Positions 13,287 through 55,224 of a DNA stretch of 64,000 nucleotides are shown here, one piece after another; position 1 is the stretch's first letter; each line of letters opens with the position of its first letter. The notes beneath the pieces were generated by a model. That model did no database searches. It worked only from the letters and a program-made list of their open reading frames with translations, and had not been told where the DNA came from. The DNA is from Yoonia sp. GPGPB17 (lineage in GTDB: Bacteria > Pseudomonadota > Alphaproteobacteria > Rhodobacterales > Rhodobacteraceae): the NCBI RefSeq assembly GCF_037892195.1, contig NZ_JATACI010000003.1, forward strand, positions 62,001-126,000. Direction: 5' to 3'. Both the position numbers and the translations under genes were made by a program.

Positions 13287-13610
13287 ATGGGACATATCCC
13301 CGAACCACGCACATGTTTCAGTTTCATCAGTGATCCCAGCCACGGTTGGCTTTTGGTCACGCCCGGCGAATTGCGCGCTGTCGGTATCAGCGAAGAGGAC
13401 ATCACGCCCTATTCCTATCGTGACATCACGGGCGAAACGATCGCGCTGGAAGAAGATTGCGATGCCCACACATTTCTGCGTGCCTGGGAAGCGAAGATCG
13501 GAAAACCGGCCGAGATCGAAGACGCTGCTGAAGGCCTCAAGCATATCCGGAACTGGCCGCGTTTTGGAACGAAAGCGTGTGATGCAGTTGGGCAGGGGGC
13601 AGGCTCATGA
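13287..13610 (+). CDS. Hypothetical plasmid protein
   Basis: A 107-residue acidic protein from ATG 13287, preceded by AAGGAG. It contains SHGWLLVTPGELRAVGISEEDI and a DAHTFLRAWE helix. I do not recognise the family. Its stop overlaps the start of the DUF3768 gene (ATGA), so the two are coupled in translation. It lies among genes typical of conjugative leading regions. Confidence 0.65.
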   Translation: MGHIPEPRTCFSFISDPSHGWLLVTPGELRAVGISEEDITPYSYRDITGETIALEEDCDAHTFLRAWEAKIGKPAEIEDAAEGLKHIRNWPRFGTKACDAVGQGAGS

Positions 13611-13974
13611 CCGATGCCCCCAAATTGACCACGGTGAGATTGCCCGCCAGAACGATGAATTCCGCCGCAGCTATGGCCAATCACGCCGCATCCGTGGCCG
13701 CATTATGATGACGCCGGGCATCGCGGATTTTGATGCGATCACAATGCAGCGTATCCAGTCCGAGATCGTGCTGTTCGACAATTTCTCAGCAGACAATGAC
13801 CCATACGCCGAACATGATTTTGGTGCATTCACCATCAAAGTGGACGGCGAAGATACCATTATTTGGTTCAAGATTGATCTTTACGACCGGCAATATGCGG
13901 CGGGTTCCGAGAAGCCAGATGATCCAGCGCAAACGCGGCGGGTCATGACGATCCTGCTGCCCTCCGAATACTGA
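13607..13974 (+). pseudogene. DUF3768 family gene, frameshifted at a C-run
   Basis: The ATG at 13607 overlaps the upstream stop (ATGA) and gives MTDAP, but after the five C residues at 13617-13621 the DUF3768 text continues in another frame: RQNDEFRRSYG, then MMTPGIADFD, FDNFSADNDPYAEHDFGAF, FKIDLYDRQYAAGSE and VMTILLPSEY. One extra C would restore a 122-residue protein with the family's usual length and all its motifs. DUF3768 is a plasmid family of unknown function. The lesion may be real, a sequencing error in a homopolymer, or a site of ribosomal slippage. Confidence 0.75.
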
Positions 13975-14056
13975 TCAACGCCCTCACAAACAGCAACATG
14001 CGCGCGCCGCCTGCCGAAAACAGCGGGGCGCGTTTTCATTTCAAAGGAGACGACCA

Positions 14057-15587: not shown

Positions 15588-16077
15588 CTTTTGTCTCACC
15601 ACATCGAAAGGAAAGATCATGAAGATCGACATCAAGGCTCATGTCACCGCCACAATCATCGCCCAGATCGAAGAGGGCACCCCGCCGTGGCGCAAGCCGT
15701 GGACAGGGGACACACCAGGGATTCCATTCCCGCGTCGGCACAACGGCGAGCAGTATCGCGGGATCAACATCCTGATGCTCTGGGCCACGGCCAGCATCCG
15801 AGGGTTTCAGTCATCCCGCTGGATGACCTTCCGCCAGGCGCTTGAACTGGGCGGCTGCGTCCGGAAAGGCGAGAAGGCGACACGCTCGGTTTACTACGGC
15901 ACATATGAGCGTGACGCCGAAAACGCAGAGACCGGAGAAACCGAAACCCGGCAAAGCCGTTTCGCGAAGGTCAACAACGTCTTCAATGCTGATGGGGTGG
16001 ATGCTCCCTCCCACAACGGCATCGCAATGTGCCAAACTGGACTTGATTGAAGCCAGTGAAATTGGAAAGGAGCACCC

Positions 16078-17106
16078 ATGAAGGACGTTAGCATTTTGGC
16101 CATTGATCTCGCAAAGCACAGTTTTCAGGTTTGCGGAACCACCGCAGACGGCGAGATTCTGTTCAATCGGAAATATTCCCGCGCCAAGTTCGAGCAGTTT
16201 CTGACATCTCATCCGGCCTGCTTGGTCGCAATGGAGGCCTGTGCGACGAGCCACCACTGGGGCCGAACGGCTCGTGAGGCGGGCCACGAAGTGAAATTGA
16301 TCCCGCCGGTCTACGTGAAGCCGTTTGTAAGGCGCGGAAAGAACGATGCAAACGACGCAGCGGCTATTGCCACGGCGGTCCGGCAGCCCGACATGCGCTT
16401 CGTGGCCGTGAAGAGCCAGGAACAACAGGCTCAGGCCATTCTCTTTCGCACGCACCAGTCGTTCACGCGTGCGCGGGCTCGGATGATGACCACGCTGCGC
16501 GGTCAACTCGCAGAGCACGGCGTCATCGTGCCAAAGGGCCATGCAGCGCTTCTCGCCTTCGAGGAAGAGCTTGAAAGAAGCCCCGAGCGTGTCCCGGATC
16601 TGGTGCTCGAGGCGGTCCGATTGTTCTATCATCAAATCCAGCAGCTCGGTCAGTCCATCAAGACGTTGGAGCGGCAGATGACCGAAATTGCCAAGAAGGA
16701 CGAAGTTGCCCGTCGCATCCAGACCATGCCCGGTGTCGGGCCGATCAATGCAGCTGCGTTCCTGGCCTTCACGCCACCGATGGAGTCCTTCAAACGCGGC
16801 CGCGACTTTGCTGCGTGGCTTGGGTTGGTCCCGAAGCAGCTCTCGACAGGCGGGAAGACCCGACTGGGTCGGGTGAACAAGATGGGACAGTCGGACATGA
16901 GGCGGCTTCTTGTGAACGGCGCGACCGTCTGTATGCGATGGGCCGCAGCCAAAGGTGTTGATCCTGAAAGCTGGCTTGGCCGCCTGATGGCGAGAAAACC
17001 GTGGAAGGTCGCGGCGATCGCGCTGGCCAACAAGATGGCTCGGGCACTTTGGGCCATGGTCACAAAGAAAGAGGAATACGCTGGCGGCTTGGTCACCTAT
17101 GCCTGA
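16078..17106 (+). CDS. IS1111-type transposase (IS110 family, DEDD)
   Basis: 342 residues. The N-terminal DEDD nuclease domain begins LAIDLAKHSFQV and has VAMEACATSHHW and GRKNDANDA-like text (RRGKNDANDAAAIA). The C-terminal Tnp_20 domain shows MPGVGPINAAAFLAF, FAAWLGLVPKQ and STGGKTRLGRVNKMG, with the conserved Ser near that segment. These enzymes recombine DNA through an RNA-guided complex. AAAGGAG precedes the ATG. The frame is intact, so the element may be active. Confidence 0.93.
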   Translation: MKDVSILAIDLAKHSFQVCGTTADGEILFNRKYSRAKFEQFLTSHPACLVAMEACATSHHWGRTAREAGHEVKLIPPVYVKPFVRRGKNDANDAAAIATAVRQPDMRFVAVKSQEQQAQAILFRTHQSFTRARARMMTTLRGQLAEHGVIVPKGHAALLAFEEELERSPERVPDLVLEAVRLFYHQIQQLGQSIKTLERQMTEIAKKDEVARRIQTMPGVGPINAAAFLAFTPPMESFKRGRDFAAWLGLVPKQLSTGGKTRLGRVNKMGQSDMRRLLVNGATVCMRWAAAKGVDPESWLGRLMARKPWKVAAIALANKMARALWAMVTKKEEYAGGLVTYA

Positions 17107-17375
17107 CAAAGCCACCTGGTCGAGTTTGCCGAGGGCGTAACGCCTGAGGTGAAAGCAAGTAGTTCTGAGAGGATTATGGGCTAACTGATCATACGTTCAG
17201 CTTCGGGAAAACCATACTCTGGTCCAGGATCTTCGAGTCCGGAACGCTGATTTTGGAACCGAAGCCTCGAACACCATAACGGCCCGTGGCGGAAGGTGTC
17301 ACATTGAGAGGCCTGACACACGAGCGATACCGATCACGATGTCAAAAATCCGAAACAGAGCAGACTTGCAAAACC
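17107..17375 (+). ncRNA. Candidate seekRNA/bridge RNA region of the IS1111-type element
   Basis: In IS1111 elements the guide RNA is encoded in the non-coding part downstream of the transposase gene, which is this stretch. It has no reading frame and contains several short complementary segments. CTGATCA at 17185-17191 equals the sequence spanning the rejoined target (GCTGAT/CAGATC), and GCTGAT recurs at about 17246, as expected if parts of the RNA match target flanks. Such short matches can be chance. The exact RNA limits cannot be read by eye. Confidence 0.4.
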
Positions 17376-17916
17376 GGGAGCATCCACACAAGATCAGATC
17401 GAGGGTCTGCCCGAGGATTACTACATCCGCCCGGAGCCACCCCGCGATCTGGGGACCCAGAGTGACCCGGCGCTTGATGCGTTCTTTGCCGCAACCGGTG
17501 CGGAGATCATCACCAGCGATGAGCCACGGGCCTACTTCCACCCGGTCAAGGATATTATCCACATGCCGCCTATTGCCACGTTCTTTGAAGCGTCCAGATA
17601 CTATGGGGTGCTCGGCCATGAGACCGTGCACTGGGATTTCGGGCCGAAGCGTCTCGATACGCAGAAGGTCAACTGCAACAAGCGTGCGTACGCCTTCAAC
17701 GAGTTGGTGGCCGAGATCGGCGCGTGCTTTCTTGGGGTGCAGTTGGGCGTACAGCCCGATTTTGATCAAAGTGCGGCCTACGTGAAAAGCTGGTTGCGCG
17801 CCCTGAAGGACGACAAGGATCTTATCTTCAAAGCCGCGGCTGAGGCGCAGAAAGCCGTCGATCACATCAACGCGGTTGTCAGCGGAGTCAGCAGCAAAAG
17901 AAGCGAAGCCGCCTAG

Positions 17917-26237: not shown

Positions 26238-26987
26238 TTCGACGCCCTCCGAACTGGGAAAATTGCGACCATCGCCGAGCTGTATTCAGCGCGTGTAATC
26301 GTCGCGCGGTTACCGGCATATCCGTGGTAGTGAGACCGGCCATTCGCCAGCGGTAGACCAGCCCAGACTTTTGCCAGCTGGTCCATGAACCGATCACGGG
26401 TGATGCGTCCGTTGATGAAGTCGGAGTAAGTAAGCCTCTTCGACCAGGTAGCGGCCCATCATGTCTTGTGTCCGGCGGTCATAGAGCGTGCCGCCAGAGA
26501 GACCCAATGCGCGGACCACCCGATTGAATGTCGCGGGAATGATCTGGTTGCGACCGATAGCATGGGGTTGTCCAGGCGTGGCACGGACCCATGCGACAAT
26601 CTCGGAGATGGTCATCTGACTGGGTCGCTTCGGCGGACGTATCGTCGCGCCATGATGCACACTGTCATATCCATGGACCGGACTTTCCGCTTGGCTGATC
26701 AGTGTCAGCAGTCGGTCCATCTGTGGACCTTGGCTTTGCTGGACAGCACGCACGAAAGGGACAACCCGGCGCGTTGCCTCATGCGCAGTGGAAGGCGAGG
26801 CCGCGGTCGCAGAAGCAGGCGAGAACCTGTCAGCTGATGACCAGCCAACACCGCTGGAAACAGGTGTCCAGCCTTCAGCCGAGAGAGGTGAGGCAAGGGC
26901 CGCAGTGATTACCACCAGCTGAGCGGCAGTCCCAAACCGTCGCGCGATTGTGTAAGCATCCGACCACCAGTTGCAAATGAATCGCAA
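26234..26987 (-). pseudogene. Lysozyme-like peptidoglycan hydrolase gene with a 4-base duplication
   Basis: The frame (open to 27251; a TTG at 26987 gives a sensible signal peptide ending SPLSA) encodes a muramidase-like domain: LLTLISQAESPVHGYDSVHHG, RPSQMTISEIVAWV, GQPHAIGRNQIIPATFNRVV and RRTQDMMGRYLVEEA. After EEA the tandem TTACTTAC near 26431 shifts the frame to an early stop at 26394. Removing four bases gives YSDFINGRITRDRFMDQLAK ... GLPLANGRSHYHGYAGNRAT and a stop at 26234 that overlaps the rseP start. Such enzymes open the cell wall for the transfer machine. Confidence 0.75.
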
Positions 26988-27156
26988 GAGCAGAAGAGGT
27001 TTCGGCCCTTTGGACCGATCAGAAAGACACACCTGACGCAGCTGAAGCTGCAGGGGCGTTTCGCTCAATAAAATAAGGGGTTTTTGAGCAGAAAACGGTG
27101 CATTTATGTGGTACAGTCTATTTTTATTGTATGTTATCAGTGATTTAGGGTTTTGC

Positions 27157-27216
27157 GTGCCATTCTGTGCCACGGTTGTGGCACGGTGTGGCAGGCCATA
27201 TGGCACGATATGGCAC
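27157..27216. repeat. Array of six 7-bp motifs with helical spacing
   Basis: GTGCCAT (27157), GTGCCAC (27167), GTGGCAC (27178), GTGGCAG (27188), ATGGCAC (27200), ATGGCAC (27210). The first two are in reverse orientation to the other four, and starts are 10, 11, 10, 12 and 10 bases apart, so all sites face one side of the helix. An AT-rich stretch (27100-27140) adjoins it. It fits a cooperative operator, an oriT accessory region or iterons. Confidence 0.6.
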
Positions 27217-27252
27217 CGATTTGGGGGATTCTGAAAGGTCTGCAAGGTCATT

Positions 27253-27810: not shown

Positions 27811-27821
27811 TGATGGGTCTC

Positions 27822-29042
27822 CTATCGAGAGCGTTCGTCACGCTGTTTTTGGTCTTGGTTCATGCTGGCGATCAGGCGATCAGCGAAGCTCATTTGAGCG
27901 TCCTTCGACTTGTCATCCTGGTCCTGATCTTTGGGCTCTTTTTCGGTGTGTTTCTCAGGCTGCTTTTTGTCGCGTTTTTCGACCTGAATATCGCGCTCGT
28001 TTTTGCCAGTTTCGTCTCGTTCTTTGTGGGGTGATTTAGCATCCGGTTTTGCTTCGTCGCGTTGGGCGGCTAGCGCCTCCAAAGCGTTCATGCGTTCGCC
28101 GGTTTGGTCAGCGATTGTGGCAGCAAGTTTGTCCACACGATCGGTCACCAAGTGGATCGTATCGCGCATCCGAGACAGCGAGACATAGAAGCTCTTCTGA
28201 GTGGTGAGTTGTTCAGCTGAAGACATCGCCAAGAGAACCCGATCCACGGTACTTCCCTGGAAGTCATGGGCCGTGGATGCGTAGGCCAACTGCATGCCTC
28301 GGGCGGCCAAGCTGTCCGTAGGAATAGGACGTTCATCACCGTCCTTCGTGACAATAGAGAACGAGTCTCTACTGACGGATTTGATGTGTCCTTCAGCTGA
28401 GTTGAAGATGCCATGTTCGCGGTCCGTGATCTTGAACTTGACCGCGTCACCAACATGGAAGTCCTGCTTGTCGGCCGAGAACACGGCGAGCTTTCGGGCA
28501 TCCGAACTGCCATGCGCAAGACTGAGTGAGACGATGTCATTGTCGGGGGATTGAAGGGCCAGTTTTTGATCATCGCGAGAGACACTGGTCACCGTATAAA
28601 GAACGTTTGCCATCATCGGAGATTGGGACGAGGCGACAGGCGAAACTACGATATCACCAACCTTGTAACTCCCGACCTCTCTAGCTTCAGCCTGGCTGAA
28701 ATTGCGGGGCAAAAGCGATGTGACTTTCACAGCGTCTTCGCCAATGAGGTTGGCACTGCGAAGCTGACCCTGGATCTGTTCATTTACATCCTTCCGCAGG
28801 GCGTTGGTGAGAACGATCAGGCCGGTGGCGGAGCGTTGTTCTGGCGTCATCGCCATGTAGGTATCAGCCATAGCAGTCGCGACTTGATCGCGAACGTCAG
28901 CCAGTTTACCGCCACCAACCTCTGTCAGTTGATTGACGCCAGCCATTGCCGTTTTGATGTCACCTGCGATGGCCGATAGGACGACAGAGCGGCCCTCATC
29001 AGTCCGTTGCCGTTGAATGTCAGTCATAGAAGCGGTTGGCAT
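27822..29042 (-). CDS. traI: TraI relaxase/helicase, C-terminal part (separate frame)
   Basis: 406 residues beginning MPTASMTDIQRQRTDEGRS, the text that normally follows GSAFRALQDA of TraI without a break. It carries the remaining helicase motifs, QLAYASTAHDFQGSTVDRVL and QKSFYVSLSRMRDTIHLVTD (motifs V and VI of RecD-like helicases), then a charged Lys/Glu/Asp-rich tail. It starts two bases after the upstream stop, in a different frame. If translated alone, via stop-start coupling, the helicase would be made as two chains; otherwise traI is broken. Confidence 0.8.
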   Translation of the reverse strand: MPTASMTDIQRQRTDEGRSVVLSAIAGDIKTAMAGVNQLTEVGGGKLADVRDQVATAMADTYMAMTPEQRSATGLIVLTNALRKDVNEQIQGQLRSANLIGEDAVKVTSLLPRNFSQAEAREVGSYKVGDIVVSPVASSQSPMMANVLYTVTSVSRDDQKLALQSPDNDIVSLSLAHGSSDARKLAVFSADKQDFHVGDAVKFKITDREHGIFNSAEGHIKSVSRDSFSIVTKDGDERPIPTDSLAARGMQLAYASTAHDFQGSTVDRVLLAMSSAEQLTTQKSFYVSLSRMRDTIHLVTDRVDKLAATIADQTGERMNALEALAAQRDEAKPDAKSPHKERDETGKNERDIQVEKRDKKQPEKHTEKEPKDQDQDDKSKDAQMSFADRLIASMNQDQKQRDERSR

Positions 29043-29044
29043 GC

Positions 29045-30754
29045 TTAAGCATCCTGAAGGGCGCGGAAGGCAGATCCGGCGCCAACGGCTTCCAGCTGCT
29101 TAACGTCACCGATGAGAACGACTTTGGCATAGCCTTGGGCAGACGCCATCTTGAGGACACGGTTCATTGAGTCTGACGACAGCATCGAGGCCTCATCAAC
29201 CGCGAGAATGGTTTTGGATTTGTCACCCAGGTTGGCGCCGTTTTCGTGCCGCACAAGTGCGCTCTCTACCGTGGACGCGACGGGTAAGGCATCGTTGAGC
29301 GCTGTGACGGCTTTATGCGATGGGGCCAAGCCTTCAATCTCGTATCCACGCGCCTGCGCCATCCGAAGAGCAGTTTCCAGCATGTAAGTTTTGCCTGCCC
29401 CGGCGTAGCCTTGAACCGCAGTCAGATACGACGTTGACGAAAGCACCATGCCGGCGGCCTCTTTCTGGCCATCAGTGAGTGTTGTGCGATCTAGTTTTCG
29501 TGAAATAACAGCGTCAGATCTGCGTCGCGTAGCCCGTTCCATAGTGTTACGAAGATCAACAACATCACGCCGCATCCCGGCTCGCATCAGATCCTTGTTT
29601 TCCGTTTCCAGACGTATGTTCTCGACATCTGTGTAGAAACGGCCCTCTTTTAGATCGACAGGGTAGAGGATGCGATCTTTGACATATTCCTTCAGTTCTG
29701 ATGCAGCAGCTCTTTGAGTCACGCCTGGCGCAAACTTCATAGCCGTCATCAGAAGATCCCGCTCCGAATAGACTGCCTCACGTTCAGAGTGATGAGCTAT
29801 CGCAAAGTCGACGGCATCGCCTGCGGATTTCTCCCTCACGGTAGATGAGGGTTGCTCATGATTCGACGCATCACGAAGTGCTTGTTGAAGATCAACGTTG
29901 AGAGATTTAACTTCGGCGGACCATGCCGCGCGAAGTTCAGAGCGTTGAACCGGTTTCTTTGCCGATCGGGTTGCCAGCGCCGCGAGGGAGCTGGCGACAG
30001 CGGTGGGCTCGTAACTTTTGTCCTTGAGAGCTTGTTCGATCTCTTCGCGACGTTTTGAGAAGGTGTCGACGAGCTCTTGAGGAACGCCTTTGATATCGAA
30101 AAGGCCTTTATCTAAGGCTTTGGTTTCGTAACCAAGATCTTGCAGGTTCTCCGCCAGAGAAGACCGATAGATCTGACCCAGGAGCATCTTTCCGTTGTAG
30201 AGGGCTTCATTTGACAGGGATCGAAACGTGCCGGTGCTGTCTTTAACCATGTTCGCTATGACAGCATGAGTATGTAGCTGCGGATCGAGAGCGCGAGATG
30301 TGTCATGCTGGAAGAGGCCAGCAATGATCTTGCCGCCTTTTTCTGTTTGGATCTGTCCGTTCACGTATTTTCGTGTTTGAACAAGATTTGCCTCAGCATA
30401 GTCCAAGGCAACTTTGACAGCATCGGTGTGCGCTTTCAGAATTCGCGTATCGCCACCTACAAGGGCTGCAATAGAAACGGCCTTGGGTGCTGAAAAAGTG
30501 AGGTCTATTCCGGGTCTGTGTTCGCGCTCGCCATCACGGAACCGGCCTAACATCCTACCATCTGGTGTTTGGCCATCCAGAATGGCGGTGAAGCGGTCAT
30601 CCGAGAAAGAGTCTGTCAGGCCAGCTTCTTCAGCAGCTTTGCCATAAAACTGTGATGATTTCTCGGCATCGTTGCTGCCTTCTAAATAGTAGCCTTCGGC
30701 TTTGTAGTATCCGCTGGACGCATGACCAGAGGATACGTTCGACATCGAAAGCAT
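29045..30754 (-). CDS. traI: TraI MobF relaxase/helicase, N-terminal part, ends early
   Basis: 569 residues. The relaxase domain (about 1-300) shows the MobF start SNVSSGHASSGYYKAEGYYL with the catalytic Tyr region, and the metal-binding HUH triad FQHDTSRALDPQLHTHAV near residue 155. The helicase begins near 430 with Walker A VQGYAGAGKTYML and Walker B TILAVDEASML, then VVLIGDVKQLEAVGAGSAF. The frame stops at 29045 (TAA) within GCTTAAGC; the rest continues in the next frame. TraI nicks oriT and unwinds DNA for transfer. It begins four bases after traD. Confidence 0.88.
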   Translation of the reverse strand: MLSMSNVSSGHASSGYYKAEGYYLEGSNDAEKSSQFYGKAAEEAGLTDSFSDDRFTAILDGQTPDGRMLGRFRDGEREHRPGIDLTFSAPKAVSIAALVGGDTRILKAHTDAVKVALDYAEANLVQTRKYVNGQIQTEKGGKIIAGLFQHDTSRALDPQLHTHAVIANMVKDSTGTFRSLSNEALYNGKMLLGQIYRSSLAENLQDLGYETKALDKGLFDIKGVPQELVDTFSKRREEIEQALKDKSYEPTAVASSLAALATRSAKKPVQRSELRAAWSAEVKSLNVDLQQALRDASNHEQPSSTVREKSAGDAVDFAIAHHSEREAVYSERDLLMTAMKFAPGVTQRAAASELKEYVKDRILYPVDLKEGRFYTDVENIRLETENKDLMRAGMRRDVVDLRNTMERATRRRSDAVISRKLDRTTLTDGQKEAAGMVLSSTSYLTAVQGYAGAGKTYMLETALRMAQARGYEIEGLAPSHKAVTALNDALPVASTVESALVRHENGANLGDKSKTILAVDEASMLSSDSMNRVLKMASAQGYAKVVLIGDVKQLEAVGAGSAFRALQDA

Positions 30755-30757
30755 CGA

Positions 30758-33078
30758 TCAAGCCCCCGATGGTGCGTCAGGTGACCAGCCACTCGGCAAT
30801 GGCAATTTGGGTTGGGGCGTTTCCGCTGGGGGTGAGGCTTTGGGATCGACGGGGCCTGGTTCTGGTTCCGGGATAGGGTCTGCATCGGAAGAAGGTTCAG
30901 TGTGATTGAATAGGTTGATTTCAACAGGTGGCTGGTCGAATTCAGGGCCGTCGTAACGCGGCGGAATTGGTCCTTCCGTTCTTATAACGTCTTCGTAGAC
31001 GCCATTGTCTGTCCCTGAAATATCATCTTCATCGCTCTTGGGACAAATGGGTGCGTTCCTCGCCAGCCCATCACCCAAAGCGACGACGGGATGGATGTTT
31101 TCAGGGTGGGTTCCAGCATTTAAGCAGCTCTTGAAATGATCAAAGTAGACTTTGTATGCGGCGCACGGCTCGGTCGCATCCGAGGGAAATTCGCTGGCGT
31201 CGCAGTGAAAGCGCCAACCACACCATTGATGAAAAGCCCGAACAATCTCGACAGTCTTTGCCGGATCTTCTTTCGGAGACTTGGCCTTTGGTTCAACATA
31301 TTCCGCAAAACCAGACGCGCTACCCATGTAAGGCAAGAACCGCGGCTGTGTTTCATCCACAAAGACTTGTTTCATATCTACAACCGCAGTTGGAGAGTCG
31401 TAGGCGAATTTGACTGCGGCACGGTGTTGAGGAAGGCTTTGTATCTCCGCAGGTGTGATGATTGCGCGTTCGACACGTTGCTGGGTGAAGCCGACGCCAT
31501 CACGTGCTTCGTGCGCACCGACGCTGATGTTTGTGTTCGACTCCCACTTGTCCTGGTTGCCTAGCATTTCTGAGCAGAGCTTTGCCGTGCGAAAGTCCGG
31601 GGTGTTGAAGACGATCCGGTTGTTAACGGTACCGGAAATGGTTTGAGCAGCTTCGCGGCCGTAGATATCTTCAAGCTGACTATAGACCTGATAACCGAGG
31701 ACGAAAGCGCCACCAAACTGACGGATTTCAGCAAGTGAGCTGATCAGGAAGGGAAGACGGTTGAGGGTAGGGACCTCATCCATGAAGAAGTAACAGCGTG
31801 GCTCGCTTGCAGGCCCCATCCCCATCAAAGCGTTGGCAGAGATTTCGAGCATCGTGGAAATGATGTTGCGCGTTGCAGCCGCATGCTCAGCATCACCAGT
31901 TAGGAAAAGGAAAGACGGCTCATCTGATTTCATCCACTCTCGGATCGAAAAGGCCTCAGCATCGTCCCTGAGATATTCAAGAAAACGCAGTTCAGAAATC
32001 AGGTTTGCGCGAATACTTTGGGCCGTCTTGACAATGTCTTCGTTGAAAAAGTGGGAGCCAGGCGTTCCGGCAATGAGTTTCGCCAGAACCTCTGAGTCGA
32101 GATGCAGCAAGTGCTGGATAAGTGATTTTACGGTACGACGCTTTGTTTTGTACAATTCCCGCGCAGCGTAATCGAAGACGATGCGCGCCGCCTGTGACCA
32201 AAAGGGTCGCTTGCAGCGCCGCGATGTTCTGGGATCATGACTTCGCCAAGTTGGGTAAAAGACGCCGCATCGAGAACATCATCGAATGGGTTCCAGGATG
32301 ATGAGCGATCATCAAACGGGTTGATGAGATAGTCTGTGCTTTCATCGTAGAAGCGAGAAACGAAGCCACCCATCCGATCATAGATAATGGCCTTCCCACC
32401 ATTCTCTCGGATGATGGAAAGCATCTCAATCATGGCATTGGTTTTACCGACACCGACGGTACCATTCAGCATCGTCTGGGCTTCGACGGCGTCTGGGGGA
32501 AATGGAATGCCAGCAATCGTCAAGGGTTTGGCTGTTTTCCGTCCCTTGTGCTTTTTCTTGTATTTGCGCCATTTGAGAGCACTCCAGCCTTTGAGCTGAG
32601 AAGCAGAGACTAGGCGAGCGCCGCGAACGAATTCATCCTCCTGGATGCGGTTTCCTGTCTTTATAAAGATAAGCAAGGAAAGCAGCCCCAAGAGCACGGC
32701 AGGAATGCCTGCGAGCCTGGCCGAGCTATGGAAAGTATAAAAGAACCCGTCACGGATGCGTCGATATTCAGTGTTACGATAAATCTGCACGGCTGGAACG
32801 GTGATGGTGTCTCCTGTGAGGTCTTTGAAGGTGTAGAGCTGGTCGAAGCCGTTTTGTCCGACGACACCGCGTTCTGCCATTTCATAGTAGAAAGCGATGC
32901 GCATCTCGCTGGGGTTGTATGTGCGGGCAACCAAGTAAACGAAGCTACAGACGTAGATCAACGCGCCGACGACAGTCGCAAACCGGAGAACCTGCCATCC
33001 CATCCGCCACCAATGCTGTGCCGTTTGACCGCCACGGATGAGTGTTGAAGCTGAGCTTACTGTCTTGGCCATCATCAA
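30758..33078 (-). pseudogene. traD: TraD type IV coupling protein, frameshifted
   Basis: The N-terminal part (from 33078) has two membrane helices and Walker A LNGTVGVGKTNAM near residue 208. After IPEHRGAASDPF the frame changes at a run of four T (32200-32203 on the plus strand as AAAA): with one more base it reads FWSQAARIVFDYAARELYKT and continues through Walker B CYFFMDEVPTLNRLP to a Pro/Glu-rich tail, 773 residues in all. As written, the first frame stops at 32128. TraD is the hexameric ATPase that brings the relaxase-DNA complex to the secretion channel. Confidence 0.85.
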
Positions 33079-34848: not shown

Positions 34849-34852
34849 TACT

Positions 34853-37070: not shown

Positions 37071-37182
37071 AGATCGCCATAGCGAATGATTGGTGAAGAC
37101 AAATCTTAATCAGGGCTGCGAGTATTGATGTAATGGTCATACAGACTGGTTGTAAGTGTAAGCAAATGAAGGACAAACATCG

Positions 37183-37386
37183 ATGCCATGGGCCCACGGA
37201 ACATACTTTACAAAAAACGATGAGAAACAAGCCTATGACTTCCTGAAGTCGCAAGGTTTGACTGATGACCAGATCGAAGGGGTCAATCACTGGCACAGAT
37301 CCCATATCGGTGGACAACTGGCGTTGTGGGTTGGTGTTGCGATGATTGTCGGAGGGCTAATTGGCTTCATGGTCGGTACGATATGA
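37183..37386 (+). CDS. Small membrane protein
   Basis: 67 residues with AAAGGAC upstream. A soluble N-terminal part (TKNDEKQAYDFLKSQGLTDD, then QIEGVNHW) precedes one membrane helix (LALWVGVAMIVGGLIGFMVG). The stop overlaps the next ATG. No family recognised. Confidence 0.6.
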   Translation: MPWAHGTYFTKNDEKQAYDFLKSQGLTDDQIEGVNHWHRSHIGGQLALWVGVAMIVGGLIGFMVGTI

Positions 37387-37780
37387 GTGGGGCCGCTCGG
37401 CGTAGGTTGACTGCGAGAAGGATGCAGTTCGATGATCGTAAGCCCATATTGCAAACAACGTTGTGGATGCTGACATTCATCTGTTGGACTCCACTGGCTT
37501 TCGCTCAAGAGGCGATACTATCGAATAGCGGCGCAACTGACGAAGAAAGGTTGATTGCGCTTACATTGACAAGGGCTTGCAGCGGAGCGAGAGGCGAAAT
37601 TGACTTCACGGATGTTGTCCGGGCTGACGTTAATGATGATGGCCTAGAGGACATCGTGATCGATCACATAAAGATCCGTTGCTTCGGCGATACCGGCCGG
37701 AAAAGCATGTTTTGCGGGGTGGGGGTAACTGCGAAGTAACCATCCACACACGGCAAGAATTTGGCTGGCGCGTTCGATGA
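37383..37780 (+). pseudogene. Secreted protein gene, frameshifted at a G-run
   Basis: ATG 37383 overlaps the preceding stop. A signal-peptide-like segment (LQTTLWMLTFICWTPLAFA) leads to TRACSGARGEIDFTDVV and a Ca-binding-like DVNDDGLEDIVID. As written the frame ends at 37739 (GVGVTAK), but one more G in the run near 37718 gives FCGGGGNCEVTIHTRQEFGW and a stop at 37778-37780 that overlaps the next ATG exactly, as at the other junctions here. The restored protein has 132 residues and four Cys. No family recognised. Confidence 0.6.
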
Positions 37781-38202: not shown

Positions 38203-38233
38203 ATTTGACGACTTCTGAACGAGGGGCGGATTA

Positions 38234-40275: not shown

Positions 40276-40398
40276 GTTGCCGACGACAACACCAAGGGCA
40301 CTTGCGAAGAAATCGTCAAGGCAGGCAAAAAGGACACTTCGCATTGAACGGTTCGTCCTGAAGTAGAAAGGAGGTCGAATGTCTGATATGATGAACAC

Positions 40399-40728: not shown

Positions 40729-40746
40729 GCGCTCAGCGCTCATCTA
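40722..40746. terminator. 25-bp perfect palindrome at a convergent gene junction
   Basis: TAGATGAGCGCT (40722-40733), C, AGCGCTCATCTA (40735-40746). It contains the stop codons of both converging genes and is a likely two-way terminator or a block to read-through of the tra operon into the island. Confidence 0.6.
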
Positions 40747-41308
40747 CGGTGCGACCAGAGAAGACATGGTTGCCAATATCGACTGTCCCGCCGCTTTCAG
40801 CCTCGGTGGCTTTCTGCCAAGTCGGCTCCAGATTGCTTTGATGACCGTTATTCACATAATCCTGCATTCCGGCCGGGCTATAGTAGTGTGTTGCGCCACC
40901 TGTAGGATCGATAGCATTGCCTGAGAAAACGTCATCAACAACGTCACCGATTTGGCGGTAAAGCTCTGAATCGGTCCGAAGGTCCCGTCCAATGTTGTTG
41001 CCGGTCCCGTCCGTGTTCCACGCGGAAAACTGGTTGGGAGCAAAGACAACGGCGGACGCATCATTGGGATGACGATCGTCGTTCACTCGATTGCGAATGA
41101 CTGAAGCAACTGCGACCTGGCCTTGACGGGTTTCTGAACCTGCTTCAGCTGCAATGGTGCGAATGACCAAGTCACGATCACCAGCATCGAGGCTGATAGA
41201 GTTAGGTGCATTTGCGGCGGACGGCCGCCACTCAACTCTATTGCCGTCTTGGACTAACTCGCCCCCAGGAGCTCTGTCAATCAGTTCGCTTCGGCACCAT
41301 TGGCCCAA
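40733..41308 (-). CDS. SleB/CwlJ-type cell wall hydrolase
   Basis: 191 residues as drawn from TTG 41308; the start is uncertain because no good ribosome binding site is seen. The Hydrolase_2 domain is clear: LVIRTIAAEAGSETRQGQVA, VASVIRNRVNDDRHP, VVFAPNQFSAWN and a C-terminal GATHYYSPAGM. The Glu in AAEAG is the likely catalytic residue. It is the last gene of the tra operon and probably opens peptidoglycan for the transfer apparatus. It begins about 28 bases after the traG stop. Confidence 0.75.
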   Translation of the reverse strand: MGQWCRSELIDRAPGGELVQDGNRVEWRPSAANAPNSISLDAGDRDLVIRTIAAEAGSETRQGQVAVASVIRNRVNDDRHPNDASAVVFAPNQFSAWNTDGTGNNIGRDLRTDSELYRQIGDVVDDVFSGNAIDPTGGATHYYSPAGMQDYVNNGHQSNLEPTWQKATEAESGGTVDIGNHVFSGRTVDER

Positions 41309-41336
41309 GAGTTGGTGTTAGCTTGCGCGTTGCGGT

Positions 41337-43988
41337 TTAAGCAATGTTGGACGCTCGACCTTCGATTCCGACGGCACCGGTCCCAACGTCATCAATTTTA
41401 CCTGACTGATAGAGAATTTCGGTTTCTGCAGCCACTGATCGTTCTGCAAGTGGAGCATGTTCCGGCATCATGTGATTATATGGGAAACCAGGCACGGGAA
41501 GATCGCCATGACCCGGATCTGCTGGTGTACCAACGGATCCACTTAAATCACCTTGAATTTGTGGCTTCACCATCTCGTCAATGTAGCGCGCGGAGAATTC
41601 GCCCCGGAGCTGAGCCAAACGGGGATTGTCAGTGCGACCGTTCATCAACTCAGCGACTTGACCAGCATTCATGCCTTTGTCGTCGATCATCCAGCTCGCA
41701 AAAGCACCGGAGACATCAAGACGACTGTCGTAAAAGTCGCTTTGCGCACGATCGGCAGCCTCACTGTAGCTGTTGGCGGTTCGAAAGTAATTGTCTGCAG
41801 TGCGGCCTTGACGTTCAATATCGTCAACTGTGTCCCTGAAACCGTTGTCGCCGGTCGTGTTCAAATTACCACTCTCGGTGTGACTGGCGGATTCAGAAGC
41901 GCGAGAAAGATTACTTATGGCGTTATCGATGCCTTGACGGCGGCTCGCTTCGGTAATTGATGAATAGTTCTCAGCTGACACACCTTGTCTTTCGAGGCTG
42001 GCACGCACACCGGCTGACAACCCGCCCCATCCAATACCTGCGCTTGCATACGTACCAACCTGGATAGCTGTTTGACGGGATATGGCGTGAGTTTCGGCGA
42101 AGCGATCTAGGACTTCCATAGATTCGGTCAAAGACGCCCTTTCTTCCGAACTCGTGTTGACGCCAGTACCGGTTGACCAGGCCTCACCAGTCGTGATGGA
42201 TTGCATGAACGAGCTGGTGTTCGAAGAAAGTTCCGACACGGATCGCTCAAAAGTCTGGCGCAAGTTGCTTCCTGTCTCGCGCAAACCGGTTGCAGTATCA
42301 CGTAGAGATGAAACGACGCTCTGACCGATGGACAGATTTGCGGCCGTGTTCACCCGAGAACTACCGCCATCAATGCCAACAGATCCATTCGCGTTCGTGG
42401 TAATCAGAGAACCATCCTGCCCATAATAACTTGAGCGTCCCGTATCTGTGAATGGAGAGGTGACATTACGATTGGCTGAAGTGTTGTCATAGGAGACGTT
42501 GTTCCGCGCGTAGTTATCCATGCTCACATTGCGGAAATTACGGTTGCCAACGCTTGCATTGCCATAAGAGAGATTACCTGTCGCCATTTCGCGACCGGTC
42601 TCAGACGCGGCGCTCTGCGATACTGCCAACATCGACGTAGCAAGACCAACCATCTTCTGGGTGCCAAAGAAGATTGCAGCAGCAACGAATGGAACAGACA
42701 TCATCAAATAGCCAGCCATCACGGCGACATCTTGACCGATAGAATAGACCCCAAAGTGATTGGCCCAGTTCATGACGCTGTCGGTGTAAGCACCACTGGT
42801 CGAGGCGGAGGTAATGGTCTGAAAACGCTCCACGGAGGCGTTCATCATCAAAGAATGAAGAATTGCCGAAAGGGGCTCCCAGGAGGCCAGCCACACAAAA
42901 CCACCAAAGTAACCCCGGACAACGGTGAGAGCGAATGGCGTCATCATAAGAGCCAGGGCGATTGGAAACGCGCCATAGTAAAGGTTCTCGAAGACGATCT
43001 TGAGGTAGGGAACCCAACTCAGAGCATTGGAACCAATCGCCTGATAACTCGACCTAGTTTGAACTTCGGCGCGCGCTGACTGAAGGTGTTGCAGAGCGGC
43101 TGCGTTGCCGGTTGCGGATATGCCACGATTTGCTGCGTCATCAAAGGCTGCAATCAGCATTGATTGCTTGATGTGGTCTTCAGCAGCGGTAGACGCATAG
43201 CCAGCAAAAGTCGCAAAATCGGATATCGTCGCCCGCAAGTCATTGATGGCAAGAGTGGGATCACCACCTTGGAAGGTCGACGCCGCTTGTGCCCCCAATA
43301 CGACGTCCACCTCAGCATTGATTTGACCGACAATATCGGGCCACCCGTCTGCACAGGTCCGCGTAGTCTGTGTAACGACATCATAGTAAGCAAGTGACGC
43401 CGGCATGTTGGCCGTGATGGTGGCTTCTAGGTTTCCAGAACGGGTCACAAGTTCGGGTGAGATGTAGCGAAGATCGACGGCATCGATAACACATTGATCA
43501 AAGAAGTTTGTTAGGTTTTCGTGCACGCTTGATGTAACGGCACGCCAGCGTGCGGATTTCGTCATCAAAGTTGCGCCAAATAGCATTCCGTGACGCTGAT
43601 AGGCGAGGTTGGTAGGAGGCGAGAAAAGCGTTTCCATCTGCGTGGTCAGAACATCCGACACGCGCGATGTGAACGAGCCAACATAGGCAACGGAGGTAGG
43701 TACATTGTCTACCGTCGCAAACCATAATGGACCCTTTGTCTTGTCGAAAATGATGACGTCCGATTTGTCAGCGACACTCAAACCGCCAACAAGGCCTATC
43801 ACGACGTATGCCTTGACCGCTTGTTTGAAATCACCGCCAAAGACGAGCTGGAAAACCAGAACAATTAGCCCTACCAGTAAGGCCAAGTTTACCATCGCCA
43901 GAGCATTTCCGGTATTGAAGAACGCAGCAACGGCGTTGAGCGTGGTGGTTAGATACTCGCCACCACCCGTTGAGTAAATTTCCAGCAT
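41337..43988 (-). CDS. traG: TraG, F-type mating-pair stabilisation protein
   Basis: 883 residues. Several membrane segments in the first 470 residues (AMVNLALLVGLIVLVFQLVF; TVVRGYFGGFVWLASWEPLS; YLMMSVPFVAAAIFFGTQKM) are followed by a long soluble Ser/Asn-rich part, the layout of F TraG, whose N-terminal part assembles pili and whose C-terminal part stabilises mating pairs and takes part in entry exclusion. The opening MLEIYSTGGGEYLTTTLNAV is typical. It directly follows traH. Confidence 0.92.
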   Translation of the reverse strand: MLEIYSTGGGEYLTTTLNAVAAFFNTGNALAMVNLALLVGLIVLVFQLVFGGDFKQAVKAYVVIGLVGGLSVADKSDVIIFDKTKGPLWFATVDNVPTSVAYVGSFTSRVSDVLTTQMETLFSPPTNLAYQRHGMLFGATLMTKSARWRAVTSSVHENLTNFFDQCVIDAVDLRYISPELVTRSGNLEATITANMPASLAYYDVVTQTTRTCADGWPDIVGQINAEVDVVLGAQAASTFQGGDPTLAINDLRATISDFATFAGYASTAAEDHIKQSMLIAAFDDAANRGISATGNAAALQHLQSARAEVQTRSSYQAIGSNALSWVPYLKIVFENLYYGAFPIALALMMTPFALTVVRGYFGGFVWLASWEPLSAILHSLMMNASVERFQTITSASTSGAYTDSVMNWANHFGVYSIGQDVAVMAGYLMMSVPFVAAAIFFGTQKMVGLATSMLAVSQSAASETGREMATGNLSYGNASVGNRNFRNVSMDNYARNNVSYDNTSANRNVTSPFTDTGRSSYYGQDGSLITTNANGSVGIDGGSSRVNTAANLSIGQSVVSSLRDTATGLRETGSNLRQTFERSVSELSSNTSSFMQSITTGEAWSTGTGVNTSSEERASLTESMEVLDRFAETHAISRQTAIQVGTYASAGIGWGGLSAGVRASLERQGVSAENYSSITEASRRQGIDNAISNLSRASESASHTESGNLNTTGDNGFRDTVDDIERQGRTADNYFRTANSYSEAADRAQSDFYDSRLDVSGAFASWMIDDKGMNAGQVAELMNGRTDNPRLAQLRGEFSARYIDEMVKPQIQGDLSGSVGTPADPGHGDLPVPGFPYNHMMPEHAPLAERSVAAETEILYQSGKIDDVGTGAVGIEGRASNIA

Positions 43989-43989
43989 A

Positions 43990-45378
43990 TCAGAACTCCA
44001 CTACTTGTGTGGCCAGCCATCCCGCGCGCTCTCCAGAGAGCGTAGACTGTACGCTCATCAGTCTGGTCAGGGTAGCGACGGCATCATTGAAGCGCTCAGC
44101 AGCTTCACGACGCATGGCGGAGAAGTTCGAATAGCTGTCGGTAACCTGCTCACGATACTCGCCAAGCTGTGGGCCCAACCCTTCCGTGTTGCCTGCGAGT
44201 TTCAGCATCTCTTCAAGGGCCTCGCGAGTGTAAAGCATCGCAAAGTCTAACGCGACCAGTTCGGCCATCAGAGCGATCTCATCACCGACAAACTCGTACT
44301 TGTAAGAACGGGCAGTCTTCAAGATTTCATAGACCGGCACTGACGTCATACCAATCAAACCCTCTGATCCAGTTGGCAAATCAGTGTCGGTCGCGAGCGC
44401 ATTGTTGATGCCTTCAAGGATCTCGGTCACCCGGGCATACAGTGCCTGGTCAGCGGCAAGGGACAAAGTTGCAAATGTTGGGTTCAGGCAGCGATCAGCG
44501 GGATCAGAATCACAGCGCAACACCTCGACGTCACCACCCTCAACCATTGTCCGGATCATCTGCGATGAAAATGCGCGAGGGGGGTAGTTGGTGTGAGAGC
44601 GCGGCGTGTCATCGTCTGTGCCACCAATGACGATGATCGTACCAGTGATTGTCATGAAGAATTCGGCCAGCTCATCATCAGAGGCAAGGAACGTGTTGTT
44701 GCGCGAGGCTTTCCAGGCATAGTTCACATTGACCGGCAGCTGCGCCTGCATTTCGGGATCACCGGCAGCGAGAGTGCTAGTATGATCACCGCCCGTACCA
44801 CACCCATGACGGGCCCGGGCACGGTCAGCCACCAATCCGCTTTGGGTCGCGATTGACTGACAAATATGCTGGGAAGCGGCGTCAGTTTGCGGCCAGACAG
44901 AAGCGACGAGCGCTTGACCCGCTTCGCAGGAATTGATGTTCATTGAATTTACCTGCTGCTGCAGGTCACGCAGCTTGCCTACCACTTCCTGAACTGCAGG
45001 AGAGAGGCTTTCCAAAGCCAACTCAAAGGCAAAGCCAGAGGCATTCGCCATGATCGCTTCCATCATTGCGATCAACTCATCAGCAGACAGGAAAGAGAAA
45101 GCACCGCCGAAGATATCGATGCCACCGCAACCAGATCGCACACTAGGAAGCTGAATGGAGGCAAGCTGGCTGTTGCGGGGTTGCGTCCGCACATAAAGGG
45201 AGCCCAATGAGACGTAGCCAGCGCGTTGACCATCATAGGCGGATGGCCTGGTCACATTGACGCCGCCAGATGAGCGCGACCAGAAATCAGCGAGGTCACT
45301 TTCAACTTGCGAAAAAGCTGCACCTGGTGCCAGCAACGAGACAGAAACTGCCAAGGCCGAGAGCGGAAACTTAATCAT
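43990..45378 (-). CDS. traH: TraH, F-type pilus assembly protein
   Basis: 462 residues with a signal peptide (LSALAVSVSLLAPGAAFS). Characteristic are GGVNVTRPSAYDGQRAGYVS, the SGCGGIDIFGGAFSFL motif and Cys-rich middle segments (NSCEAGQALVAS). TraH is a periplasmic/outer-membrane-associated protein needed for pilus extension and retraction. GGAGAACTC precedes the ATG. It overlaps the restored end of traF. Confidence 0.93.
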   Translation of the reverse strand: MIKFPLSALAVSVSLLAPGAAFSQVESDLADFWSRSSGGVNVTRPSAYDGQRAGYVSLGSLYVRTQPRNSQLASIQLPSVRSGCGGIDIFGGAFSFLSADELIAMMEAIMANASGFAFELALESLSPAVQEVVGKLRDLQQQVNSMNINSCEAGQALVASVWPQTDAASQHICQSIATQSGLVADRARARHGCGTGGDHTSTLAAGDPEMQAQLPVNVNYAWKASRNNTFLASDDELAEFFMTITGTIIVIGGTDDDTPRSHTNYPPRAFSSQMIRTMVEGGDVEVLRCDSDPADRCLNPTFATLSLAADQALYARVTEILEGINNALATDTDLPTGSEGLIGMTSVPVYEILKTARSYKYEFVGDEIALMAELVALDFAMLYTREALEEMLKLAGNTEGLGPQLGEYREQVTDSYSNFSAMRREAAERFNDAVATLTRLMSVQSTLSGERAGWLATQVVEF

Positions 45379-46198
45379 AGAGTTCTCCTTCTGGAATGCT
45401 GGTAATGATGCGAATGCGATCCAAGACTATGTCTTGGGTCATCAGGCCTGACGCCAATGAGATCGACCTGTCCAGAACGTGGTTCTACCAACGCTAGGAA
45501 TGGAGACGGAACGTCTGCGAAACCAAGGTTTTGAACTTCGCCTTGATCGACTTTACTGTCTGGAAACGTCGGCAAGACGATGCCATCCCGCGTCACAGCC
45601 AAAACTGAGACTCCATACTGTTGAACGAGGGCTTGAAGGACTTCGCCTTGCGTGGCGCAAACGAGGCAAGACGGTGAACCGTCATATACGAACATGAGCG
45701 CGCGTTCCGTCGTGGCTGTCTGAAACGCGGCGTCACGATCAACATCGAGCCTATCTTGATAGAGATTGCTGCCAATCTGAGACAGCGGCCGATCGACGTT
45801 TGCATCGAGGCTCGGGTTCGCGAATAAGCTGCGCTGCCACACTTCAGTGAACAAGCCTGCCTGCCGGACCATGGCCGCCTGCGCTTCCATGTAGGCGACA
45901 ACGTTGTCCGAAGTCGGTTCGAGTATTGCGCGATGCTTCAGCTCATCGAGTTGGACGCGATACTCTTCAATTTGCTCTGTGTAGGTTTTCGGAGGAGCGG
46001 CGGCGGGGCAGGGGGAAGTTCCGCAGCCGCCTCCGGCTCCTCTTCAACCACTGCGTTGGGGTCGCAGTAGAAGTTCCAGCCCTGGGTTCGCTGATCATCG
46101 CAGGCGAAACCACGACCCGAAGTCGGTTCTGTCAGATCGGCAAACGCGGGAGCAGAAACGGCCAGCGTGGCGAGGAAAGCGAAGCCAAACAGGTTCAT
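45371..46198 (-). pseudogene. traF: TraF, F-type pilus assembly protein, with two compensating frameshifts
   Basis: Signal peptide MNLFGFAFLATLAVSAPAFA, then DDQRTQGWNFYCDPN. After PPAPPP the text changes frame near 46005: the true continuation is KTYTEQIEEYRVQLDELKHR, then MEAQAAMVRQAGLFTEVWQR and the thioredoxin-like core LMFVYDGSPSCLVCATQGEV. Near 45440 the frame changes back, giving GLMTQDIVLDRIRIITSIPE and a TAA at 45371-45373 that overlaps traH. The start and end are in the same frame, so one base is lost and one gained. Restored length 275 residues. TraF helps disulfide formation and pilus assembly. Confidence 0.8.
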
Positions 46199-52154: not shown

Positions 52155-52345
52155 TCGATATGCTCCTTAGACGATGAAAAATTCTTATTAGAATGCGCTT
52201 TGGAGCGCCCTGCATCATGGACAAAACCAAACCGACGAAACTCTTTAGAGAGCTTCCGCCAAACCCAGCACAGGCCGTCGAATGTGAACATTGCAATGGT
52301 CGCAACACCGACCATAGCCAGCCAAATAGTGAGTCCATCAAGCAT
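52151..52345 (-). CDS. Small membrane protein in the tra operon
   Basis: 64 residues: one membrane segment (LTIWLAMVGVATIAMFTFDG) followed by a basic tail (WRKLSKEFRRFGFVHDAGRS). It overlaps traC by one base and the next gene by four. No family recognised. Confidence 0.6.
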   Translation of the reverse strand: MLDGLTIWLAMVGVATIAMFTFDGLCWVWRKLSKEFRRFGFVHDAGRSKAHSNKNFSSSKEHIE

Positions 52346-54825
52346 CAGATGACCTCCCCGCTCTCAACAAGCTGTTCGAGGGCGTCACCCATGTTCATGC
52401 CACGCACATTGACCAGGTCATTAAGTTTCTGGACCATGTGTCCTGTGGTCGAGAAAATCGCCAAGGAGTACTTATCGAGGAGAAGTCGACCAAAGAGCCA
52501 GCCTTCCGGGCCGCGAATGCCGCACTCGGAAAACTGGCCTTTGACGGAGGTGAGTGATTTCAAACTATGCGCAATGCCTTCAGGGGCATTCAGCCGCCCG
52601 TCAGCCACAAGCTGATCGATGACCTCTGGTTTCTGCGACAGAAAGATGGTCCAGTCACTGTTTTGAAGACAAACGAGTGCAGCCGGATTTTCATAGTAAT
52701 CCAGCATCGATTGCGTGCCAGTAATCAATGCTCCGGTGTATTTGCGGGCGCGCCGAACCACGCCTTCGAGAAATTTCGCCGTCTCAGCACCAAGCATGTC
52801 CCAAGCTTCATCGATCAGGATGGCGACACGGGTCGAACGATCCGTTTTGAACATGAGTTCTGTGCCGAGGAACATGATGATCTGCAGAACAACGGCTTCG
52901 AGATCCTTCTGAGACTTCAGCTCAGACATCTCGAAAACAGTGAAGGCGCTATCGATCGACACGTTTGAAGGCCCGTCAAACATTTCACCGTATGTCCCGC
53001 CGACCGCGTAACGGCTCAGCTTGGTGATAACGTCAATCAAGCGAGGTTCTTTCTCGACGTTGGATTTTAGGATGCCTAGAACTTCGGTGACGTTGCCATC
53101 GTTGCCGAGCTTGTCCCACACTTCAGCACAGGCCAATTCGATAAACTCTTCCTCAATCCCGGAAACGCGACCTTCGCGCTGCTCACCCAGGTTGGCCATC
53201 GTTGCGATCACGCGAGTGATCAATTCCAGCGCTTCGCCCCGATACTCGATTGAATCCATGTGTTCAGCACTGAGCATTGCGAATGGATTGAGACGAAACT
53301 GACTGCCAGATCCGATACTCAGCCAATCGCCACCAATAATTTCACAAGTAGTCTTGAACGACTGTCCATCATCGATGACCAAAACACGGCCACCACCAGA
53401 GTAGATTGAAGTGACCAGTTCCTGCATGAATACTGACTTACCGGCACCCGACTTACCAACAACCGAAACGTTGTAGTTGCCGGAAGAGCGATAGTTGTCC
53501 CAGTCACACAATTGGCCTTGGCGACCGCACAACAGCAAACCTGTGTACTCTCGCGCACCAACAAATTCACCGTGGATCGGAGCCAATGCGGTGACTGCAG
53601 CACCCTTCCTCTTTTTCACACGAGAGGCTTTCCGCATGTCTTCGATACGTGGGCCACTGGCCTGAAACGGAAGACCTGCGAGAAACACTGGGAGCTGAAG
53701 AAAGTTGTCTTTTTCCAACGTAACGCCGACCATCGAGTAGATTTTGCGCATCTCGGACAAGGCCGCAGTACTGTCATCAACGTCACCGCGCGCGTAGGCT
53801 GAAACGGTCGTTAGTGTCTCAAAGATACGTTCGCCACGTTCGAGCTGACTTTGAAGGCCTTCAAACTCAGCATCTTGCTCCGGCAAATCCGACATCCACT
53901 TCCCGAAGTTAGTCGTTTTTGCGTGTTCAAGTTTCGCACGTTTTTTGACCACCTCAGACATACTCTGACGGTTTGGTTTTGAACGGGCCGTTAGACATGT
54001 CAAAACCGGCCCATGAGGGTTATCATCTGGCCTGTCGGGCGAGCCATTAAACAATGATCCCAGCGCTGCAGCCCACTCGTGCGGGACCATGCGGACCGTC
54101 GCAGAAGAGACGGACAACTCTGGAGAATTGAGGAAAGACATGCCGTCGCTCGCGACGGCCAAGCCAGCACCCGGCAGTTGATAGTTCAGTGGGACATCAT
54201 CGTCATAAACAAGTGGTTCTGCAGACACAGACCCCCGAGTGTGCAGCATCTCTGAAAGGAGCTCCAAAAAAACACTAGGCTGCACGTTCACGCAGAGCTG
54301 GTCGCCACCCATCGCAAGGATGAGGTTGCGGCGGAATTCCTTCAGACCTTTCAGCTGGCTTTGCGACGGATCCCCATCGACCCACCCAGAAATCAAAATG
54401 CGACGCGAATGTGGAACGCACTTCATATGGCCATTCGTTCCAAAGCGAAGGCTGTTGAAGTGACCAATCCGCCGTTCGACCATCTTGCGCATTAGTGGGG
54501 TTTGAATGTGGCGCTGGCTGGACCATCTGGTAAGATTCGGCATGAGATTTGGTGATGCCCAGGAAATGAATTGAACTGTTCCATCGGGTGGGCAGTAGCT
54601 GGAAATGGCTGTTTGAAGTGTCCGAAACACGTCGGCACCAATGACCGGTGGCGTCTCAAGAAGAAAGCCGACAGTCCCATCGTTGTGGAACAAATTGTCC
54701 TCTGGATCGTACACACGGTAGGACAGGAGATCAGAAAAAACATGGTCAACAAAAGACTGCCGATCTTCCATGGTGAATGGGGCATCATCGAACAGTGACG
54801 ACATAAAGTTGGCAAACCCTCCCAT
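52345..54825 (-). CDS. traC: TraC, T4SS ATPase (VirB4-type)
   Basis: 826 residues, the usual TraC length. Walker A VVGKSGAGKSVFMQEL near residue 455, Walker B VAILIDEAWDML near residue 670, and the C-terminal SQKPEVIDQLVADGRL region are typical of VirB4/TraC, which powers pilus assembly from the cytoplasmic face. The N-terminal part (YRVYDPEDNLFHNDGTVGFL) matches the family's TraC_F domain. The ATG overlaps the traV stop. Confidence 0.95.
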   Translation of the reverse strand: MGGFANFMSSLFDDAPFTMEDRQSFVDHVFSDLLSYRVYDPEDNLFHNDGTVGFLLETPPVIGADVFRTLQTAISSYCPPDGTVQFISWASPNLMPNLTRWSSQRHIQTPLMRKMVERRIGHFNSLRFGTNGHMKCVPHSRRILISGWVDGDPSQSQLKGLKEFRRNLILAMGGDQLCVNVQPSVFLELLSEMLHTRGSVSAEPLVYDDDVPLNYQLPGAGLAVASDGMSFLNSPELSVSSATVRMVPHEWAAALGSLFNGSPDRPDDNPHGPVLTCLTARSKPNRQSMSEVVKKRAKLEHAKTTNFGKWMSDLPEQDAEFEGLQSQLERGERIFETLTTVSAYARGDVDDSTAALSEMRKIYSMVGVTLEKDNFLQLPVFLAGLPFQASGPRIEDMRKASRVKKRKGAAVTALAPIHGEFVGAREYTGLLLCGRQGQLCDWDNYRSSGNYNVSVVGKSGAGKSVFMQELVTSIYSGGGRVLVIDDGQSFKTTCEIIGGDWLSIGSGSQFRLNPFAMLSAEHMDSIEYRGEALELITRVIATMANLGEQREGRVSGIEEEFIELACAEVWDKLGNDGNVTEVLGILKSNVEKEPRLIDVITKLSRYAVGGTYGEMFDGPSNVSIDSAFTVFEMSELKSQKDLEAVVLQIIMFLGTELMFKTDRSTRVAILIDEAWDMLGAETAKFLEGVVRRARKYTGALITGTQSMLDYYENPAALVCLQNSDWTIFLSQKPEVIDQLVADGRLNAPEGIAHSLKSLTSVKGQFSECGIRGPEGWLFGRLLLDKYSLAIFSTTGHMVQKLNDLVNVRGMNMGDALEQLVESGEVI

Positions 54826-55224
54826 TATCTTGCTCCCCAGCGCGCTTCACGGACAACAAAATGGGCGTATGTACCTTCATGAAGGATTTCGGCTTCGTCG
54901 AGATATGGAGGCAACCATAAACGGCCCGTCTTTTCCGGGATTCTATACTGCGCCGACTGATAAGCAGCCCCGCCCGCGGGAACACCAGATACAGCAGACC
55001 CAGGCTTGCCACCGGTCAGGATCGGTTGCGTCAACTGGTCGTTTTGACTGTCTTGCTGGTTTTCAGAAACGGTTGCGCCGCCGATGACGCCAGATCCATC
55101 AATCTCGGCCATCGTTCTACAAGGCTGTCCCGTCTGTGCACCACACAGGAAATTCTTTTCAGTGCTGCTTTCACCACAGTCTAGCCAAAGCAACGGCGAC
55201 GACAAAAATGAGTTGGCGGTTCAT
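54825..55224 (-). pseudogene. traV: TraV outer-membrane lipoprotein, frameshifted in the signal peptide
   Basis: ATG 55224 (GGAGAAC upstream) gives MNRQLIFVVAVALA and then the frame breaks at AGAC (55179-55182), where three bases are expected; the mature protein continues as CGESSTEKNFLCGAQTGQPC. Dropping one A gives ALASC, a good lipobox, and 132 residues. The Cys pair and the end RLWLPPYLDEAEILHEGTYA are typical of TraV, which forms the outer-membrane core complex with TraB and TraK. As written no signal peptide joins the mature part. Confidence 0.85.

Follow-up and report, generated by a model that had tools for sequence, protein, structure and literature searches.

A 64,000-nucleotide stretch of DNA from Yoonia sp. 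GPGPB17 (the window; bases 62001-126000 of the 154,067-base contig C3, in a genome of five contigs and 4.21 Mb) carries F-type conjugation genes, with Pfam matches to TraG, TraH, TraN and TraU. These transfer genes are colinear across aligned blocks with those of four relatives, whose plasmids (G047, G035, G017 and G012) were used for comparison. A first-pass annotation had described many frame breaks across the conjugation genes of the window and had proposed this comparison, which confirmed its description: eight coding breaks are specific to the window relative to three or four relatives' plasmids, and the relatives' frames are open where the window is broken (Table 1). The broken-gene signal is most likely not a real feature of the plasmid.

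Table 1. Interrupted genes of the window, with the state of the relatives at each lesion
Feature	Position	Strand	Lesion	Relatives at the lesion
DUF3768 gene	13600..13974	+	frame lost within first codons at C-run, homopolymer class	supported by one relative only
ardC with IS110 inside (transposase 16078-17106)	15619..17870	+	judged a real insertion	
gene of unknown family	26394..27251	-	break at 26428	GCCGGC in 2/3
traI relaxase/helicase, two pieces	27822..30754	-	break at 29043-29047, reads GCTTAAGC	CCGG in 3/3, GCCGGC in 0/3
traD coupling protein, two pieces	30758..33078	-	homopolymer break near 32199-32203	no GCCGGC
small conserved gene	37383..37739	+	C-terminus gone at G-run near gene end, homopolymer class	
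traG with C-terminal Hydrolase_2	40733..43988	-	breaks at 41290 and 41338	GCCGGC in 2/4 at each
traF	45375..46140	-	breaks at 45449 and 45997	GCCGGC in 2/4 and 1/4
traV	54825..55224	-	break at 55180	GCCGGC in 1/4, CCGG in 4/4

The window was aligned by MAFFT with homologous stretches of G012, G017 and G035 (24979-35791), and of these three plus G047 (39948-59571), and 12 blocks were found in which it is out of frame relative to every aligned relative. Eight blocks lie within genes; the others were left out, two as intergenic and poorly aligned (40275-40287 and 40337) and two as additional DNA found in none of the four relatives (49933-50023 and 50036-50339). The transfer genes that are broken here exist in intact form in the relatives. 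Their intact TraI, TraD, TraG and TraF proteins matched two or three different frames of the window, and those corresponding to traV and to the gene broken at 26428 stop or start at the break. For traG, a single open reading frame (ORF) of 1083 residues in all four relatives is represented in the window by pieces of 883 and 191 residues. Six of these blocks lie in genes that the first-pass annotation had listed as broken, but it had overlooked both traG breaks, and its label of lysozyme-like for the gene broken at 26428 was not upheld, as neither the window ORF nor a relative's intact ORF had a Pfam match. Frame junctions numbered eight in 34,985 covered window bases, compared with none in 20,957 bases of three control stretches from relatives' plasmids. 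Judged by these alignments, the frame breaks of the window are in excess of chance.

Three lesions were assessed separately. The proposed break of the DUF3768 gene holds through one relative, since the sole relative ORF found matches in one frame only from its fourth residue on. The gene at 37383 lacks a C-terminus common to seven aligned homologues (of 14 found); this bears out the predicted G-run break, which lies near 37710-37726 rather than at 37383. The insertion sequence (IS) reported within ardC belongs to the IS110 family, and ardC is uninterrupted in G012 and G017. On this comparison the element is a real insertion, an event separate from the other lesions and the only lesion that looks real.

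Errors concentrated at a single motif were found for six of the eight coding breaks, which have GCCGGC within approximately 11 alignment columns in at least one relative; many chromosomal junction rows have no assigned motif. The background frequency of such proximity was 537 of 29,660 positions (1.8%), giving p ~1e-9, with adjacent positions being non-independent. The seventh break, in traI, reads GCTTAAGC, and the eighth, in traD, is a homopolymer. The motif itself has nearly vanished from the window, with four copies compared with 27.1 in shuffled sequence; GCCGGC is also below Markov expectation in the relatives, but more mildly (113 versus 180.6). The list of conserved sites is small: of 11, four carried an indel and five a substitution, and two were unchanged. 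Among gap clusters with good flanks, noncoding DNA included, a relative had GCCGGC at 6 of 60 in the window and 3 of 76 in the chromosome. A codon-class table gave GCCGGC as kept at 3 of 45 sites in the window, which is low, and at 2 of 45 in the chromosome, which is not unlike some control motifs.

Depletion of GCCGGC was found in samples of all replicons (C1, C2, C3, C4 and C5), with observed and expected counts of 7 and 53.2 for C3, 7 and 98.7 for the chromosome sample, 1 and 6.9 for C1, 0 and 7.3 for C4, and 0 and 5.1 for C5. The genome as a whole contains 166 copies, the lowest number among 56 genomes of the genus, where approximately 903 would be expected. Its ratio of GCCGGC to CGGCCG was 0.136, compared with 0.371-1.294 (mean 0.737) in the 55 congeners. 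Conversely, GCTTAAGC was found 166 times, the highest count of the 56; the next highest was 58, and the mean of the others was 27.3, sixfold lower (uncorrected for genome size). The second-lowest GCCGGC ratio in the genus was that of G010 (242/652), which has 46 copies of GCTTAAGC yet in which no NaeI was found.

The restriction endonuclease NaeI cleaves GCCGGC. The site is printed as GCC|CCG in one review (PMC4081073), which is taken here for a misprint. A 294-residue chromosomal protein of this genome matches NaeI (PF09126, E 1.1e-39; PDB 1ev7/1iaw, E 2.2e-19) and is directly preceded on the same strand by a 318-residue C5-methyltransferase, as expected of a Type IIE NaeI restriction-modification system. 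Unlike NaeI itself, the homologue covers profile positions 17-230 of 288, and its specificity and activity are predicted. The vanished motif hints, indirectly, that this system may recognize and methylate GCCGGC. In a search that covered the endonuclease, not the methyltransferase, NaeI was found in 24 of 394 genomes of the family and, within the genus, in this genome alone (none of 55 congeners). All replicons sampled are affected, and an enzyme matching the motif is encoded in the genome.

Damage of the same kind was found outside the plasmid. Comparison of G011 proteins with 220 kb of the chromosome gave 28 frame-junction rows (26 merged) in 98,106 coding bases, whereas the reverse control gave 8 rows (6 places) in 93,799 bases, 3 of the 6 places reading as breaks of this genome viewed from the other side. 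Junctions of the window and chromosome together numbered 18 in 74,711 bases, compared with 8 in 124,690 covered bases of 11 control stretches, which are not clean, as 4 of the 8 lie in one stretch (L063, of G045). Strings taken strictly from window lesions were near 2 of the 26 chromosomal junctions (random 76/5000, p 0.06), and the variant GCTTAGC, which first came to notice on the chromosome, at L050:14006, was near 5 (random 42/5000, p 2e-6), making 7 of 26 together. Nine interrupted chromosomal proteins were scanned. ClpA, a BchP-like reductase, ArfB, D-amino acid dehydrogenase and a DVUA0089-family protein are interrupted with a product string, and UbiE, nicotinate phosphoribosyltransferase (at an A-run), FlgD and FlgE without one. 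The 23S rRNA gene (L051:3021-5849) is broken at L051:4312, where all six relatives have GCCGGC; further gaps in the rRNA stretch are distant from the motif. The genome yielded one 16S gene.

Collectively, these data make it very probable that the lesions are assembly errors, arising where reads of native DNA were miscalled at methylated GCCGGC, with homopolymer errors in addition. Under this explanation, the chromosomal NaeI-type system would methylate GCCGGC on all replicons, as the gene pairing and the motif suggest, and native DNA would have been sequenced by a method that responds to modification, nanopore being the likeliest. At the modified motif, base-calling would then yield incorrect and often longer strings, with GCTTAAGC as one recurrent product, and the miscalls would be left without correction by accurate data. 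False stops and frame shifts would result every few kilobases in genes, on plasmid and chromosome alike, and the breaks of traD, the DUF3768 gene and the 37383 gene would be homopolymer miscounts. The pattern of errors points to a DNA-marking system behind it. The first-pass annotation, which had not decided between decay and sequencing error, had counted a TTAC duplication in the gene broken at 26428 and an AGAC site in traV against sequencing error; both are now the best evidence for it, because relatives read GCCGGC there, the genome encodes an NaeI-type system, and the chromosome and 23S rRNA gene are similarly damaged.

Systematic consensus errors linked to native DNA modification have precedents in nanopore data, where base-callers produce them at modified motifs absent from their training. 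Approximately 70% of the errors of then current Oxford Nanopore Technologies (ONT) callers fell in Dcm motifs in a Klebsiella pneumoniae benchmark (PMC6591954), and modifications lowered the quality of some ONT genomes of Listeria (PMC10687267). The present case differs from these in its motif, GCCGGC, and in that the modifying enzyme was deduced from the assembly.

Several observations weigh against this explanation. At each site, GCCGGC was found in just 0-2 of the 3-4 relatives, and the codon-class fraction of broken GCCGGC sites (6 of 45 in the window, 4 of 45 in the chromosome) overlaps that of G+C-rich control motifs, which reached 0.25. Nineteen of the 26 chromosomal junction rows have no known product string and are homopolymers, shadow ORFs or unexplained. 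The Listeria errors were mainly mismatches rather than indels, whereas the changes here are often insertions, and 5-methylcytosine counts did not differ there (PMC10687267). A second C5-methyltransferase, encoded on C4, could contribute, and some of the GCCGGC shortage may be natural avoidance. Avoidance as the sole cause was rejected on a sample of 14 of the 23 other NaeI hosts (40 kb from each, but 120 kb from G246; most G+C-richer than this genome). Their loss was milder, with 254 copies of GCCGGC versus 647.6 expected (0.39; range 0.19-0.63), and a single GCTTAAGC was found in 640 kb, none of it in the 120 kb of G246 (54.3% G+C). By comparison, the chromosome studied here has GCCGGC at 0.07 of expectation and 21 copies of GCTTAAGC in 440 kb. 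Since the GCTTAAGC excess is missing in the hosts sampled, NaeI alone does not produce the signature.

Generic long-read noise, consisting of homopolymer errors and random indels in which DNA modification has no role, is an unlikely source of the lesions. The breaks of traD, the DUF3768 gene, the 37383 gene and several chromosomal loci are consistent with homopolymer miscounts, as the first-pass annotation had suspected of homopolymer sites, and G045, probably an ONT-only genome, supplied half of the control junctions. However, homopolymer error as the sole cause was rejected, as it leaves the focus on one motif, the loss of GCCGGC and the excess of GCTTAAGC unexplained. Further, G045 and G032, both probably among the genomes assembled from ONT reads with Flye in one study (PMC11482539), have ordinary counts of GCCGGC (805 and 2315) and of GCTTAAGC (18 and 25), so long reads alone do not produce the signature. 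The G045 stretch L063 contains four junctions in 13,261 covered bases, and the G045 genome has normal GCCGGC counts.

Real decay of the plasmid transfer genes is very improbable. It would accord with breaks in the relaxase, the coupling protein, traF, traG and traV and with the real IS in ardC. However, the chromosome is hit at a rate similar to that of the window (10 junctions in 39,726 bases versus 8 in 34,985), so the damage is not concentrated on the plasmid, and decay was rejected; it also gives no reason for one motif to be favored. In broken as in intact transfer genes, most differences from relatives are at third codon positions (24, 8 and 168 at the three positions for a traG piece compared with G047), with no sign of relaxed selection, which suggests that the frames were under selection until very recently, if they are not still. 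Under the miscall explanation, the transfer genes are probably intact in the cell; the loss of self-transfer that the first-pass annotation envisaged if the lesions were real is not supported.

There is likewise little chance that the lesions are real scars, left where an incompletely methylating NaeI-type system cut and mis-repaired most GCCGGC sites, with the broken genes tolerated or bypassed: they do sit at the motif of an enzyme encoded in the genome, but none of the seven motif-class lesions retains both half-sites with 1-3 added bases, on which end-joining scars were rejected, the GCTTAAGC excess is not seen in the 14 other NaeI hosts, and the 23S rRNA and clpA would have to be damaged.

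If the lesions are miscalls at modified GCCGGC, this public genome would seem to carry many false pseudogenes, hundreds by extrapolation from the G011 protein comparison. Such false pseudogenes, together with a plasmid falsely shown as disabled, would misdirect studies of gene loss and of plasmid mobility. These findings also suggest that a finished assembly by itself can reveal a modified motif together with its enzyme, where a palindrome has vanished, one product string recurs and the genome encodes a gene that fits; public assemblies could be screened for this combination.

Other features of the window were also recorded. Only four PLSDB records matched the window, by short or distant matches, and none matched 36800-38300; a tblastx search of 35.8-39.9 kb against the compared loci was empty. 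No drug-resistance gene was recognized among the window proteins scanned, a subset of the ORFs. In the one relative's TraG that was scanned, TraG_N is joined to a Hydrolase_2 cell wall hydrolase domain, a fusion that distinguishes this traG from F-type conjugation systems. Adjoining traU, the window has 395 additional bases (49933-50339) that none of the four relatives shares; they hold an ORF (49949-50347) without a Pfam match. A plasmid-borne RseP-like site-2 protease (TIGR00054; 24975-26237) adjoins the transfer genes, and a further transposase of the IS110 family, distinct from that in ardC, lies at 60886-61995.

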